Source: Ilumatobacter coccineus YM16-304
GTDB lineage: Bacteria > Actinomycetota > Acidimicrobiia > Acidimicrobiales > Ilumatobacteraceae
DNA: 64,000 nucleotides
Direction: 5' to 3'
Assembly: GCF_000348785.1 (NCBI RefSeq)
Contig: NC_020520.1
Coordinates: forward strand, 3,906,001 to 3,970,000
Part shown: positions 13,958-62,451 of the stretch, one piece after another
Layout: the number at the start of each line of letters is the position of its first letter
Numbering within the stretch: position 1 is the stretch's first letter
Notes under the pieces: generated by a model
What the model was told of the DNA's origin: nothing
Databases searched by the model: none
What the model saw: the letters and a program-made list of their open reading frames with translations, nothing else
Made by a program: the position numbers and the translations under genes

Positions 13958-13996
13958 ACCCCGGACGGTTTGTCTCTGAGACAAACCGTCCGGGGT
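13958..13996. repeat. Palindromic repeat element, copy 1
   Basis: A perfect inverted repeat with 19-nt arms (ACCCCGGACGGTTTGTCTC) around a single T. It lies between the divergent cysS and HAD genes, so it is not an ordinary terminator position. A second, slightly degenerate copy is at 19244-19276. Confidence 0.8.
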
Positions 13997-19243: not shown

Positions 19244-19276
19244 CCGGACGCTTTGTCTCTGAGACAAACCGTCCGG
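19244..19276. repeat. Palindromic repeat element, copy 2
   Basis: An inverted repeat with 16-nt arms (CCGGACGCTTTGTCTC) around a single T, with one mismatch. It shares the core TTTGTCTCTGAGACAAA and flanking CCGGACG with the copy at 13958. Here it follows the HAD gene and may act as a terminator. Confidence 0.75.
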
Positions 19277-40545: not shown

Positions 40546-40582
40546 ACCTGGTTATTTCCATCCGGGATGGAAATAACCAGGT
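40546..40582. terminator. Perfect 37-nt palindrome after the siroheme gene
   Basis: 18-nt arms (ACCTGGTTATTTCCATCC and its complement) flank a single G. It lies 4 nt past the stop of the gene at 40586 and upstream of the M16 gene. Probably a terminator. Its one-base centre resembles the palindromes at 13958 and 19244, but the sequence differs. Confidence 0.65.
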
Positions 40583-58723: not shown

Positions 58724-58867
58724 AGATCAGCTTGCTGACGGTGCTCAGGGTCGTCGCTCGCAAGGCGCGTGACCACACCACAAGAGCAACCCAGCACCAC
58801 TCAAGTGTCAGCTCGCTGAGGCGCCGAAAGATCTTCCGAGGTCAAGGAAGCATGAGGCCGAGTTGCC
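58724..58867. repeat. 144-bp intergenic repeat, copy 1
   Basis: A 144-bp unit, repeated at 58901 with only six substitutions and no indels. It contains two TCAGC-TT/TC-GCTGA dyads (58727-58738 and 58808-58819). It lies in a gene-free stretch between two minus-strand genes. No protein-coding sense that I can support. Confidence 0.88.
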
Positions 58868-58900
58868 GCCACATCAAGAGATCAGCTCGCTGATGATAAA

Positions 58901-59044
58901 AGATCAGCTTGCTGACGGTGCTCAGGGGCGTCGCTCGCAAGGCGCGTGGCCGCACCACAAGATCAACCCAGCACCACTCAACGGTCAGCTCGCTGAGGCG
59001 CCGAAAGATCTTCCGAGGTCAAGGAAGCATGAGGCCGAGTTGCC
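58901..59044. repeat. 144-bp intergenic repeat, copy 2
   Basis: The second copy of the unit at 58724, with dyads at 58904-58915 and 58985-58996. A fifth dyad, TCAGCTCGCTGA at 58882-58893, lies in the 33-nt spacer between the copies. Confidence 0.88.
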
Positions 59045-59097: not shown

Positions 59098-60318
59098 TCA
59101 GCCGGGGCGGCCGACACCGGAGACTTTGCTCCAGTTGACGTTGGCGATCTTGACGACGTCGCCGGTCGCCGGGGCGTGCACGAGTTGGCCGCCGCCGAGG
59201 TACACGCCGACGTGGCTGATCGGGCTGTAGTAGAAGAGCAGGTCGCCGGGCTGGGCGGCGCCTTGCGACACGTGGGGGATCGAGGCGTATTGCGCTCGCG
59301 ACTGGTGCGGCAGGTAGACGCCGGCCTTGCCCCAGGCGTACTTGGTGAGGCCGGAGCAGTCGAAGTTGACGCCGGGGATCTCGGTGGCGTAGCGGTACGG
59401 CACACCCTGCTGGCTGAGCGCCGCGTTGACGGCGACGCTTGCGAGCGACGACACGGGCGGTGCGCTGGTGCCGCCACCGGAGCTCCCACTGGAGCCGTTG
59501 TCGGTGCTGGAGCCGCTGCCGGAGCTGCCGCTTCCCGAGCTCGTCGAGGTCGAGCCGCTGTCACTGTTCGACGAGGAGTTTCCGCTGTTGCTCGAGCTCC
59601 CGGAGTTGCTGGAGCTGCCGGAGTTGTTGCTGGCCTGGTTGGCGGCAACGGTGGCTTCGTACTGTGCCTGGACTGCGGCGGCTGCTGCGGCGGCGCGACG
59701 CTGTTCTTCTTCGGCGATCGCCTCGCCGAGTTCTTGTTCGGCGGTGACTCGGGCGGCTTGGTAGTCGAGCTTGAGCTGCTCGGTCTCTTCCTGGGCCGAG
59801 ATGAGCGAGGCGGCGAGTTGCTGAGCCTGCTGGTTCTTCTTCTCGAGGTCGGCGCGGTCGGCTTCGAGGTCGGCGACGAAGGCGTCGAGTTCGTCGGTGG
59901 TGATGTCGCCGGCGCTGAGTGCGACTCGTGCGAGTTCCTCGCGTTGCAGGACGTCGTTGATGTCGGCGGAGTCTTCGAAGAGCGGTCCGAGGGTGGCGCC
60001 GCCGGCGCCGACGAACGACCGGATCGCCATGTCGCCGAGGTCGGCACGCAGCGTCGAGAGCTCGGCTTCCTTGTCGACGATGGTGGCTTGCAGTGCCACG
60101 ATCTCGTCGGCGAGGCGGGCTTGCTCGTCGAGCGATTCGACGTAGTCCTCGCTGATCTGCAGGGTGCGTTCTTCGAGACGTTCGAGTTCGTCGACGATCT
60201 GTTCGACGCGCTGCCGCTTCTGCTCGACGGTGCCGGCTGCGGCGACGCTGGGATGGATCGCTGGCACGACGAGGGTGATCATCAGTGCGATCGGCGCAAG
60301 GCGCAGGAACTGCTTCAT
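59098..60318 (-). CDS. Secreted NlpC/P60 peptidoglycan endopeptidase with coiled coil
   Basis: A 406-residue exported cell-wall hydrolase. The signal peptide is residues 1-28 (ending SVAAAG). A long coiled coil follows (about residues 30-225), like the regulatory arm of RipC or CwlO, which FtsEX-type partners use to activate the enzyme. A Ser/Gly/Asn-rich linker of about 65 residues leads to the NlpC/P60 domain. The catalytic Cys is in VNFDCSGLTKYAW, with His in SHVGVYLGGG and the polar third residue in LVHAP. It cuts the D-Glu-mDAP type bond. The upstream promoter candidate is at 60339-60367. Confidence 0.9.
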   Translation of the reverse strand: MKQFLRLAPIALMITLVVPAIHPSVAAAGTVEQKRQRVEQIVDELERLEERTLQISEDYVESLDEQARLADEIVALQATIVDKEAELSTLRADLGDMAIRSFVGAGGATLGPLFEDSADINDVLQREELARVALSAGDITTDELDAFVADLEADRADLEKKNQQAQQLAASLISAQEETEQLKLDYQAARVTAEQELGEAIAEEEQRRAAAAAAAVQAQYEATVAANQASNNSGSSSNSGSSSNSGNSSSNSDSGSTSTSSGSGSSGSGSSTDNGSSGSSGGGTSAPPVSSLASVAVNAALSQQGVPYRYATEIPGVNFDCSGLTKYAWGKAGVYLPHQSRAQYASIPHVSQGAAQPGDLLFYYSPISHVGVYLGGGQLVHAPATGDVVKIANVNWSKVSGVGRPG

Positions 60319-60338
60319 AGCGAAGTCAAACCCTAGCG

Positions 60339-60367
60339 AATATGACGAACTTGTTGCGAAACGCCAA
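60339..60367 (-). promoter_or_regulatory. Promoter candidate of the NlpC/P60 gene
   Basis: On the minus strand, TTGGCG (60367-60362) and CATATT (60344-60339) are 17 nt apart, 20 nt before the ATG at 60318. Confidence 0.35.
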
Positions 60368-60459
60368 CGAAAAGTCAGAGTCCCCTGTCACACCCGATTT
60401 CCGGCCGCTTCTCCCCCACGCCCACCACCGGCCGCCCACGCTGCCCAGCAACGCGCCAG

Positions 60460-60567
60460 AGGATGATTTCTGCCCAGGCCAAAAGTCGTCGCGACAGGAT
60501 GATTTCTGCCCAGGCCAAAAGTCGTCGCGACAGGATGATTTTCGCCCAGGCCAAATGTCGTCGCGAA
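60460..60567. repeat. Three 36-bp tandem repeats
   Basis: Units start at 60460, 60496 and 60532 with the sequence AGGATGATTTCTGCCCAGGC. Units 1 and 2 are identical; unit 3 has four changes. There are no spacers, so this is not a CRISPR array. The period is a multiple of 3, which keeps frames open, but I see no real gene. Confidence 0.9.
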
Positions 60568-60578
60568 TCACCGAAAGC

Positions 60579-60851
60579 GAAGGAGCTCCGGCGACGCCCA
60601 ACTCGGCGCAGCGACGAGTCGAACCCGAGTCGAGCGGCAGCGAGTCCGGGCGTCAGCCCGGAGAAAGAATGAGCAGCGACGGAGTCGCTGCTCATGACCG
60701 AGGAACGAGTGAATGCGACGCCCCACTCGGCGCAGCGACGAGTCGAACACGTGTCGAGCGCAGCGAGTCCGGGCGTCAGCCCGGAGAAAGAGTGAGCCTC
60801 GACGGAGTCGAGGAGGGAGCGACGAAGGAGCTCCGGCCGGCGGAGCCGGCC
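60579..60851. repeat. Hairpin-rich repeat block downstream of guaA
   Basis: Two direct repeats (60601-60687 and 60725-60810) each carry a TCCGGGC-GTCA-GCCCGGA hairpin and a GGA-loop hairpin. The GGA-loop stems differ by compensating changes: GAGCAGCGAC/GTCGCTGCTC at 60671-60693 and CCTCGAC/GTCGAGG at 60797-60813. A third GGA-loop stem (GGCCGGC/GCCGGCC) ends at 60851, next to the guaA stop. GAAGGAGCTCCGGC occurs at both block ends. It is probably a REP-like or terminator family. Confidence 0.8.
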
Positions 60852-60852
60852 C

Positions 60853-62451
60853 TCACTCCCATTCGATCGTGCCGGGGGGCTTGCTGGTGATGTCGTAGAC
60901 GACGCGGTTGACGCCGTCGACTTCGTTGATGATGCGTTGCGACATCACCTCGAGCGTCTCGTACGGGATGCGCGCCCAGTCGGCGGTCATGGCGTCCTCG
61001 CTCGTGACCGCACGGATGACGACCGGGTTGCCGTAGGTGCGTTCGTCGCCCATCACGCCGACCGAGCGGACGTCGGCGAGCAGCGCGGCGTACGACTGCC
61101 AGATCTCGCGTTCGAGTCCGGCGTTCTTCAGTTCTTCGCGCACGATCGCGTCGGCTTCCTGGAGCAGGGCGACGCGTTCGGGTGTGACTTCGCCGATGAT
61201 GCGGACGCCGAGGCCCGGGCCGGGGAACGGTTGGCGCCACACCATCTCGTCGGGGAGCCCGAGTTCGGTGCCGAGCGCCCGCACTTCGTCTTTGAAGAGG
61301 TCGCGCAGCGGTTCGATGAGTTCGAGTTCCATGTCGTCGGGGAGCCCGCCGACGTTGTGGTGGCTCTTGATCACCGATGCGGTGCCGTCGGTGCCACCCG
61401 ACTCGATGAGGTCGGGGTACAGCGTTCCCTGCACGAGGAACTTGGCGTCACGCAGACCGCCGGTGTGCTTCTCGAACACGCGGATGAACTGCTCCCCGAT
61501 CGCCTTGCGCTTCGCTTCGGGTTCGGTCACGCCGGCGAGCGCGGCGAAGAACTGTTCGCTGGCGTCGACGTGGATCAACTCGAGGCCCATGTTGCGGCCG
61601 TACGTCTCGACGACTTGAGCGCTCTCGTTCTTGCGCATGAGTCCGGTGTCGACGTAGATGCAGGTGAGTTGATGACCGATCGCCTGATGCACGAGTGCCG
61701 CGGCGACCGACGAGTCGACCCCGCCGGAGAGTGCGCAGATGACGCGTTCGTCGCCGACCTGTTCACGGATGAGGGCGACCTGTTCTTCGATGACCGACGC
61801 CATCGCCCAGTCGGAGGCGATGCCGGCTCGCTCGTGGAGGAAGCGGGCCATCGCCTGCATGCCGAACGGCGAGTGGACGACCTCGGGGTGGAACTGGACG
61901 CCGTAGATCTTGCGCTCGTCGTTCTCGAGGACGGCGACCGGCGCTCCCGGTGACGTGGCCGTGCCGACGAAGCCGTCGGGCAGCACGGTGATGCCGTCGA
62001 AGTGGCTCATCCAGCATTCGTGAGCGCCGGGAGCATCGTCGGGGAGGATCAGGGAGTCACCGGTTCGTTCGAGGACAGTGCGCCCGTACTCTCCCGCCAT
62101 GCCGCGGCCGACGACGCCGCCGAGTTGTTGTGCGATGAGCTGCGCGCCGTAGCAGATGCCGAGCATCGGGATGCCGAGGTCGTAGATCGCCGGGTCGAGC
62201 GACGGGGCGCCCTCGACGTGCACGCTGGCGGGGCCTCCGGAGAGGATGATCGCGGCGGGTGCCCGCTCGGCGATCTCGTCTGCGGTGATCCGGTTGGGGA
62301 CGATCTCGGAGAAGACGCTGAGCTCGCGCACGCGGCGGGCGATGAGCTGTGCGTACTGGGCTCCGAAGTCGACGACCAGCACGGTCGGGCGATCGTCGGA
62401 CGCGGATGTCGTGGGAGATGAGGGCGACGGCGGTTGACTCAAGGCATGCAT
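60853..62451 (-). CDS. guaA: GMP synthase (glutamine-hydrolysing)
   Basis: A 532-residue enzyme that converts XMP to GMP with glutamine and ATP. The N-terminal glutamine amidotransferase domain has the nucleophile Cys in LGICYGAQ and the His/Glu pair in QFHPEVVHS. The ATP-pyrophosphatase P-loop is [10 protein letters not shown]. The C-terminal dimerisation domain ends [18 protein letters not shown], the typical last residues. The first 20 residues are a Ser/Pro-rich extension. The start ATG shares the palindrome ATGCAT with the divergent gene at 62446, so the two genes have overlapping start codons. Confidence 0.95.

Follow-up and report, generated by a model that had tools for sequence, protein, structure and literature searches.

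Introduction

Transcript ends in high-GC bacteria, which often lack clear U-tract terminators, are a matter of debate, and the intrinsic terminators include U-tract-less, I-shaped ones described for mycobacteria. It has also been proposed that clusters of hairpins near stop codons serve as intrinsic terminators without a U-tract (Gupta and Pal 2021, PMC8355165); there, a cluster may consist of whatever hairpins are predicted, given loops of 5 nt or more. Short palindromes also lie near the 3' ends of ORFs in REP/BIME systems with a RAYT transposase, sometimes overlapping the stop codon (PMC3733652), and perfect stems with multibase compensatory changes are a feature of RNA hairpins maintained by template switching (PMC8794818).

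In the window analysed here (a stretch of 64,000 nt; positions 3,906,001-3,970,000 of a 4,830,181-base single-contig genome), the 3' flank of one minus-strand gene encodes a train of GC-rich hairpins that belongs to a family. Like the clusters of PMC8355165, the trains comprise several hairpins less than 15 nt apart, near a stop codon and with no strict U-tract. Unlike them, they have loops of 3-4 nt and of one type, a fixed order and spacing and a stop codon that is often inside, and they are found at a small share of genes. The likeness to REP/BIME sequences is one of position, whereas the trains have no common stem sequence, tag or adjoining transposase and keep one orientation; what is REP-like here is the neighbouring set of 36-nt units, and not the train. 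As in intrinsic U-tract terminators, a GC hairpin is followed by U-rich sequence past the coding region, but the U-rich stretch of the train is weak and displaced, and another hairpin and a tail come after it. With template-switch-maintained hairpins (PMC8794818), the trains share perfect stems and multibase compensatory change; unlike those, they are tied to stop codons in a single orientation, and mutation alone is therefore an insufficient explanation. We found no published description of the family in the open-licence literature, in a search that did not target the loop rule itself.

Results

The hairpin train downstream of guaA

The train sits between two minus-strand genes, in the 3' flank of the one which, following the initial annotation, we take to be guaA (stop at 60853); the other, at 59098-60318, is presumably NlpC/P60-like. 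Homologues of guaA with 58-90% identity were present in 28 of the 29 further genomes searched. Read in the guaA sense, the loops are UCC and UGAC, and the direct repeats (Table 1) lie 123-124 nt apart, with 93% identity between 60591-60636 and 60715-60760 and 94% between 60637-60687 and 60760-60810. The initial annotation had described a GTCA-loop hairpin kept unchanged in both repeats, and we find it so (TCCGGGC-GTCA-GCCCGGA in plus-strand letters). Its GGA-loop hairpins are likewise present, the swap of AG/CT for CT/AG that it reported between two of them is real (GAGC-AG-CGAC-GGA-GTCG-CT against GAGC-CT-CGAC-GGA-GTCG-AG), and the third does abut the guaA stop codon. Two compensating pairs alone would be weak evidence, and it is the relatives that supply the strength.

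Table 1. Features of the guaA 3' flank in window coordinates; hairpins are written in the guaA sense.
Feature	Position	Strand	Remarks
guaA coding sequence	60853..62451	-	open frame, 532 aa; stop codon 60853-60855
Hairpin 1, GGCCGGC-UCC-GCCGGCC	60835..60851	-	7 bp; 1 base past guaA stop codon
Imperfect hairpin GGAGC...GCUCC	60816..60834	-	predicted in DNA fold; absent from RNA minimum
Hairpin 3, first copy, CCUCGAC-UCC-GUCGAGG	60797..60813	-	7 bp
11-nt pyrimidine-rich spacer CUCACUCUUUC	60786..60796	-	
Hairpin 4, first copy, UCCGGGC-UGAC-GCCCGGA	60768..60785	-	
Conserved tail CUCGCUGCGCUCG	60755..60767	-	
Hairpin 3, second copy, AUGAGCAGCGAC-UCC-GUCGCUGCUCAU	60669..60695	-	12 bp; compensating stem changes relative to first copy
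Hairpin 4, second copy, identical to first	60645..60662	-	
Tail of second copy, CUCGCUGCCGCUCG	60631..60644	-	
Two direct repeats, the duplicated half of the train	60591..60838 (60591-60714, 60715-60838)	-	
Three 36-nt REP-like units, neighbouring, outside the train	60460..60566		family linked to Y1_Tnp (RAYT-type) gene

The imperfect hairpin would, we infer, occupy the place that hairpin 2 has in other trains. The second copy of hairpin 3 is followed by UCUUUCUC and therefore also passes a terminator-like scan, which returned six sites in 7.4 kb against 2.7 +/- 1.8 expected, one window hairpin being among them. Predicted RNA folds of the region were more stable than all of 200 shuffles (z-scores of -5.6 for the minus and -6.5 for the plus strand), and across RNA and DNA folds of either strand z ranged from -5.6 to -7.1, none of the 200 shuffles equalling the real sequence in any of the four runs. 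A search of the window against Rfam gave no match at the gathering score, and five train-bearing loci gave two matches (E 0.075 and 0.13), far under their gathering scores. GGA loops on perfect stems of at least 7 bp were found in four of the 89 intergenic hairpins of a 464-kb genome sample; three are those of the guaA flank and the fourth belongs to a similar train after a gene that we take to be groEL.

A family of trains in Ilumatobacter and relatives

Our first seed alignment held ten copies with one wrong base, and rebuilding it from the references gave a corrected model. As the initial annotation had anticipated, relatives have further copies and the stems covary: the corrected model found 71 copies at E<=0.05 in the 12 genomes searched, 60 of them at E<=0.01, the eleven weakest being doubtful. 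They occur in the genome of the window (hereafter the own genome; 7 copies), in seven of nine congeners and in two genomes that belong to a different genus of the family (G001, 19; G002, 2; G003, 14; G004, 10; G005, 3; G006, 9; G007, 2; G057, 3; G072, 2), with none at E<=0.05 in G008 and G009. The listed copies score 26.6-84.8 bits, whereas no match outside trains exceeded 22.5 bits in a 1.15-Mb sequence sample. The presumed groEL train was missed by the covariance model and found by a structural scan, and the matches of G079 are the same as those of G001.

Farther afield, the first model matched six of 61 genomes of the family at E<=0.01 and two of 296 in the wider class at E<=0.001 (strict filters, 18 candidates scored per genome); matches in G071 and G073 were discarded because they are located inside genes. 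Scanning the genome collection for TCCGGGC-N3/4-GCCCGGACTCG returned 101 stretches. T..C loops were present in 6/6 Ilumatobacteraceae matches (two assemblies) versus 2/78 elsewhere, among the 84 matches of the first 80 loci, and runs of at least three hairpins in 5/5 Ilumatobacteraceae loci versus 2/96 others (a Bryobacterales and a Halobacteriales contig). The Halobacteriales run (L137, 5441-5506) has three consecutive hairpins, the opposite strand showing two with TAC and TACC loops and GCTCGCTGC between them; in its letters it resembles the Ilumatobacter trains. Random flank samples from four genomes held no train (G001, 0/127; G057, 0/66; G019, 0/85; G008, 0/68), which indicates that trains are rare; in the own genome they were found in 3/270 sampled flanks. 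Restriction of the family to an Ilumatobacter-type lineage is the best reading of these data.

Within that lineage, train presence is patchy among close relatives. For guaA, 29 loci including the own were collected, 27 with a readable 3' flank, some of them short: the congeners G003, G004 and G006 have recognisable trains with changed stems in the same order and G001 has traces, and no train was seen in the flanks of G002, G005, G007 and G008 or in those from outside the genus. At a gene that we take to be rplK, 28 of 30 loci had a readable flank, and trains, judged by eye from marked sequence, were clear in the own genome, G007, G057 and G072; G055 has two hairpins, G037 has a variant, and the remaining readable loci have no train. 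In the variant, which is the rplK 3' flank of G037 (L299), the early hairpins have G..A loops (GGA and GAA by eye); UGAC and UCC loops come next, so that the train looks inverted in its first part.

Covariation of the stems

Paired cells make up 96.4% of the ten-row corrected seed alignment, and double-change cells number 12, against 2.7 +/- 1.3 in shuffled and at most 3 in slid alignments; the number of further pair types is unexceptional (74 of 500 shuffles as high). For a larger alignment, the 65 first-model matches in the collected loci were reduced to 62 distinct rows. Here 96.8% of cells pair, 12 of the 14 pairs have a double change, and there are 127 double-change cells, where shuffling gives 29.7 +/- 4.7 and sliding the partners no more than 24, the alignment being fitted to the model. 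Counts of G-U and of A-C mismatches (13 and 5 in this model-fitted alignment, 2 and 2 outside the model) single out neither strand as the one under selection. The stems thus covary, and loop type, spacing and orientation are kept.

Covariation is usually taken as evidence of selection on RNA. Template switching is, however, reported to create stems and multibase compensatory changes (PMC8794818) and, between the arms of an inverted repeat, to homogenise the arms and invert the spacer (PMC8604942). It may be that template-switch mutation creates and maintains the train stems, and the whole family could on this account be of mutational origin without a selected function, hairpins forming in single-stranded DNA and one arm being copied onto the other; the loops would persist since d(cGNAg) and d(cGNNAg), their complements, are unusually stable in DNA. 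We consider this account, the main rival of the reading favored below, possible but improbable. In its favor, there are stems that reproduce the coding-sequence end (e.g. GTCGTC-TGAC-GACGAC), and the early G037 hairpins have the inverted loop type; it leaves unexplained the sense orientation after stop codons and the fixed spacer and tail. The initial annotation had proposed a selected RNA or a REP-type structure: we favor the selected RNA, which is unproven because template switching can produce compensating changes as well, and the REP-type half was not supported.

Position at gene 3' ends

Gene calls came from a codon-usage script, and stop distances and neighbour strands may be wrong in some fragmented contigs. 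Four of the 62 first-model matches lie at contig edges, with no upstream gene in the sequence, so position counts refer to 58. Of these, 53 follow a stop codon in the sense orientation at no more than 200 nt (46 at up to 50 nt and 7 at 51-200 nt), two lie further away, two are behind an antisense gene and one is inside a gene (E 0.0455). The 53 near-stop copies represent 48 distinct flanks: 28 have a co-directional gene next, 17 a convergent one, and in three the next gene lies beyond the available sequence. Protein comparison placed the 54 matches with an upstream sense gene in 27 families, 14 of which occur in at least two species; the tRNA-ligase family includes one doubtful match (G006:C8) that is more than 200 nt away. 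Pfam named 17 of 20 upstream proteins, leaving three without a family at E<=1e-8; the named ones include FtsW/RodA, Rho, a class I tRNA ligase, FtsK, an M41 (FtsH-type) peptidase, TypA/BipA, a penicillin-binding protein and a sigma-70 factor.

The stop codon is within a hairpin in 20/48 train flanks versus 34/407 sampled own genes (search windows differ somewhat), and wholly in the loop in 7/48 versus 5/407 (e.g. GUCGUC-UGAC-GACGAC). Position, orientation and recurrence at the same genes together point to the transcript 3' end. In the own genome, codon-position skew suggests a replication origin near position 0, and given such an origin all six train-bearing genes run with replication; gene sense and replication sense are confounded there.

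Loop type, spacer and tail

In the mRNA sense, a train usually opens with a GC hairpin, or two, located at the stop codon or around it; a third hairpin, a U-rich spacer of 10-11 nt and a last hairpin follow, and most loops are c(UNC)g or c(UNNC)g. Hairpins that precede the model match, and were thus not chosen by the model, have such loops in 59/75 cases (one has the complement type and 15 others); for the 67 distinct early hairpins the counts are 51, 1 and 15. Early U..C hairpins number two in 29 of the 48 flanks, one in 14, three in one and none in four. By comparison, with stems of at least 6 bp, U..C loops were seen in 10/129 hairpins of sampled own 3' flanks and in 1/152 in coding sequence. 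Those ten lie within four flanks, three of which are trains. A genome-wide loop rule for intergenic hairpins was rejected, loops elsewhere being mixed. Mutation without function does not account for the excess of 51 distinct U..C hairpins over one inverted type in the genus set; the scarcity of flanks with at least two U..C hairpins (3/270 sampled own flanks; antisense 0) counts against it too.

Hairpins 3 and 4 are separated by 10 or 11 nt in 34/48 and by at most 15 nt in all 48 measured pairs, and the spacer mostly ends in UUUC or GUC. In 27/48 flanks the element together with 40 nt contains an 8-nt stretch with at least five T, at any place relative to the stem. The tail CUCGCUGCGCUCG is conserved by sequence, and copies at unrelated genes have common sequence in the last hairpin and tail, which makes them partly related by dispersal and not independent. 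ACTCGCTGCGCTCG has ten further exact occurrences in nine genomes, nine of them inside called genes; the tenth lies 54 nt past a stop codon in an order-level relative, with no marked hairpins adjoining.

The loop d(cGNAg) is stable in DNA. The literature also names d(cGNNAg) as a stable motif of DNA loops (PMC8373063). The complements of the train loops are therefore stable DNA loops, and we weighed a DNA-level element, in which c(GN(N)A)g hairpins would arise in the template strand, or in DNA that is single-stranded at the fork, and be read by a protein or by the replication machinery. The loop rule would suit such an element, as would the replication-sense direction of all own copies under the inferred origin and the predicted DNA folding energy of this region of the window, slightly better for the G..A strand (-87.0 versus -82.1 kcal/mol). 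That energy difference is small, however, and comes from energy tables without triloop terms; as RNA, the two strands fold equally well, and the association with stop codons speaks for transcripts. We regard a DNA-level element as quite unlikely.

REP-type repeats

The genome has five Y1_Tnp matches, four above the cut-off. The check for a REP-associated transposase proposed in the initial annotation thus succeeds for the genome as a whole and fails for the hairpins themselves. Arrays of the 36-nt unit flank one Y1_Tnp gene on both sides (L155, about 1320-1425 and 2300-2555), and the 16-nt core of this unit has 246 genome matches with at most two mismatches, against 0 and 1 for controls. A second Y1_Tnp gene has the CGGACGGTTTGTCT palindrome on both sides (L156, 987 and 1898), and a third has two CTG-loop palindromes on one side only. 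No hairpin train was seen in the loci of about 3.3 kb around the five matches (stems of at least 7 bp listed), and the seed alignment, inspected by eye, shows no conserved unpaired GTAG or CGTC tag at one end of the train hairpins. The GTCA-hairpin pattern is no high-copy conserved palindrome, occurring at two places in the genome with up to three mismatches.

That the trains are mobile REP-type repeats spread by a RAYT transposase we consider very unlikely. Apart from the Y1_Tnp genes, this idea could draw on the common last hairpin and tail at unrelated genes and on REPs elsewhere, which likewise sit near the 3' ends of ORFs and can provide a stop codon (PMC3733652). Against it, the exact repeat occurs just twice in the genome, no train was seen in the loci around the Y1_Tnp genes, trains keep one orientation with no common stem sequence, and they recur at the same genes in several species. 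REP identity of the trains was rejected, the REP-transposase repeats of this genome being other sequences, among them the 36-nt array.

Among the matches listed, plus-strand copies of the 36-nt unit look rare in the first 3 Mb; strict replication polarity of these REPs was rejected on a sample showing both orientations on one replichore. The dispersed intergenic palindrome CGGACGGTTTGTCT-CTG/CAG-AGACAAACCGTCCG occurs in the window at 13958-13996 and 19252-19268, and elsewhere at L005 11618, L019 19750, L021 11543 and L023 13985.

A proposed role at the mRNA 3' end

We favor the possibility, and think it somewhat more probable than not, that the region is an RNA element of the gene 3' end, acting as a hairpin-cluster terminator, a 3' stabiliser or both, and we infer that selection maintains its structure through action on the mRNA 3' end. 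In our working model the guaA transcript makes a GC-rich train that starts at the stop codon and whose second half is here duplicated. Hairpin 3 would form as the polymerase moves through the U-rich spacer, whose length is roughly that of one RNA-DNA hybrid, and would thereby slow or release the enzyme as a weak hairpin-cluster terminator; stacked hairpins would also block 3'-5' exonucleases. On the sequences at hand, termination and 3' protection carry about equal weight and need not exclude each other. Counting against termination, (i) the U-tract of the train is weak and displaced; (ii) a train lies between the genes we take to be rplK and rplA in four genomes, where full termination would cut the operon; and (iii) the train after the presumed groEL gene is followed by a long hairpin ending in CTCCCCTTTTG, a better terminator, so that the train there may stabilise and not terminate.

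A combination, in which mutation supplies the stems and selection keeps them at 3' ends, would fit the sequence data. As a tentative extension, to which we give a low likelihood, the trains might be a new class of 3'-end element of bacterial genes, with several loop-coded hairpins, the first of which often takes up the stop codon; loops would be limited to UNC/UNNC since the complements in the template strand are ultrastable in DNA, so that template switching during replication recreates and repairs stems the mRNA needs; if true, a structured RNA would be maintained by a DNA-level process. The family bears on whether template switching feeds covariation, and it is a compact set of copies in which orthologous train-less flanks are natural controls for the question of termination or protection.

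Other repeats and conserved stretches

The dispersed palindrome ACCTGGTTATTTCCATC-CGG/CCG-GATGGAAATAACCAGGT was seen in the window at 40546-40582 and at L010 11993, L016 17494 and L018 362 and 18192; stem changes in one variant look compensating. Hairpins with a common ATCCGTCA-N4-TGACGGAT core have differing outer stems that still pair (L005 3761 and 4912, L012 8712, L020 18078, L023 15962). Window positions 58724-59044, between two genes, hold 1.8 repeats of a 177-bp unit with 95% identity. A conserved stretch, TTTCGCAACA...CGTCATATTCG, at about 60319-60375 (minus strand, by eye) upstream of the presumed NlpC/P60-like gene is found at the same place in several congeners (L026-L028, L030, L032) and is perhaps a promoter.
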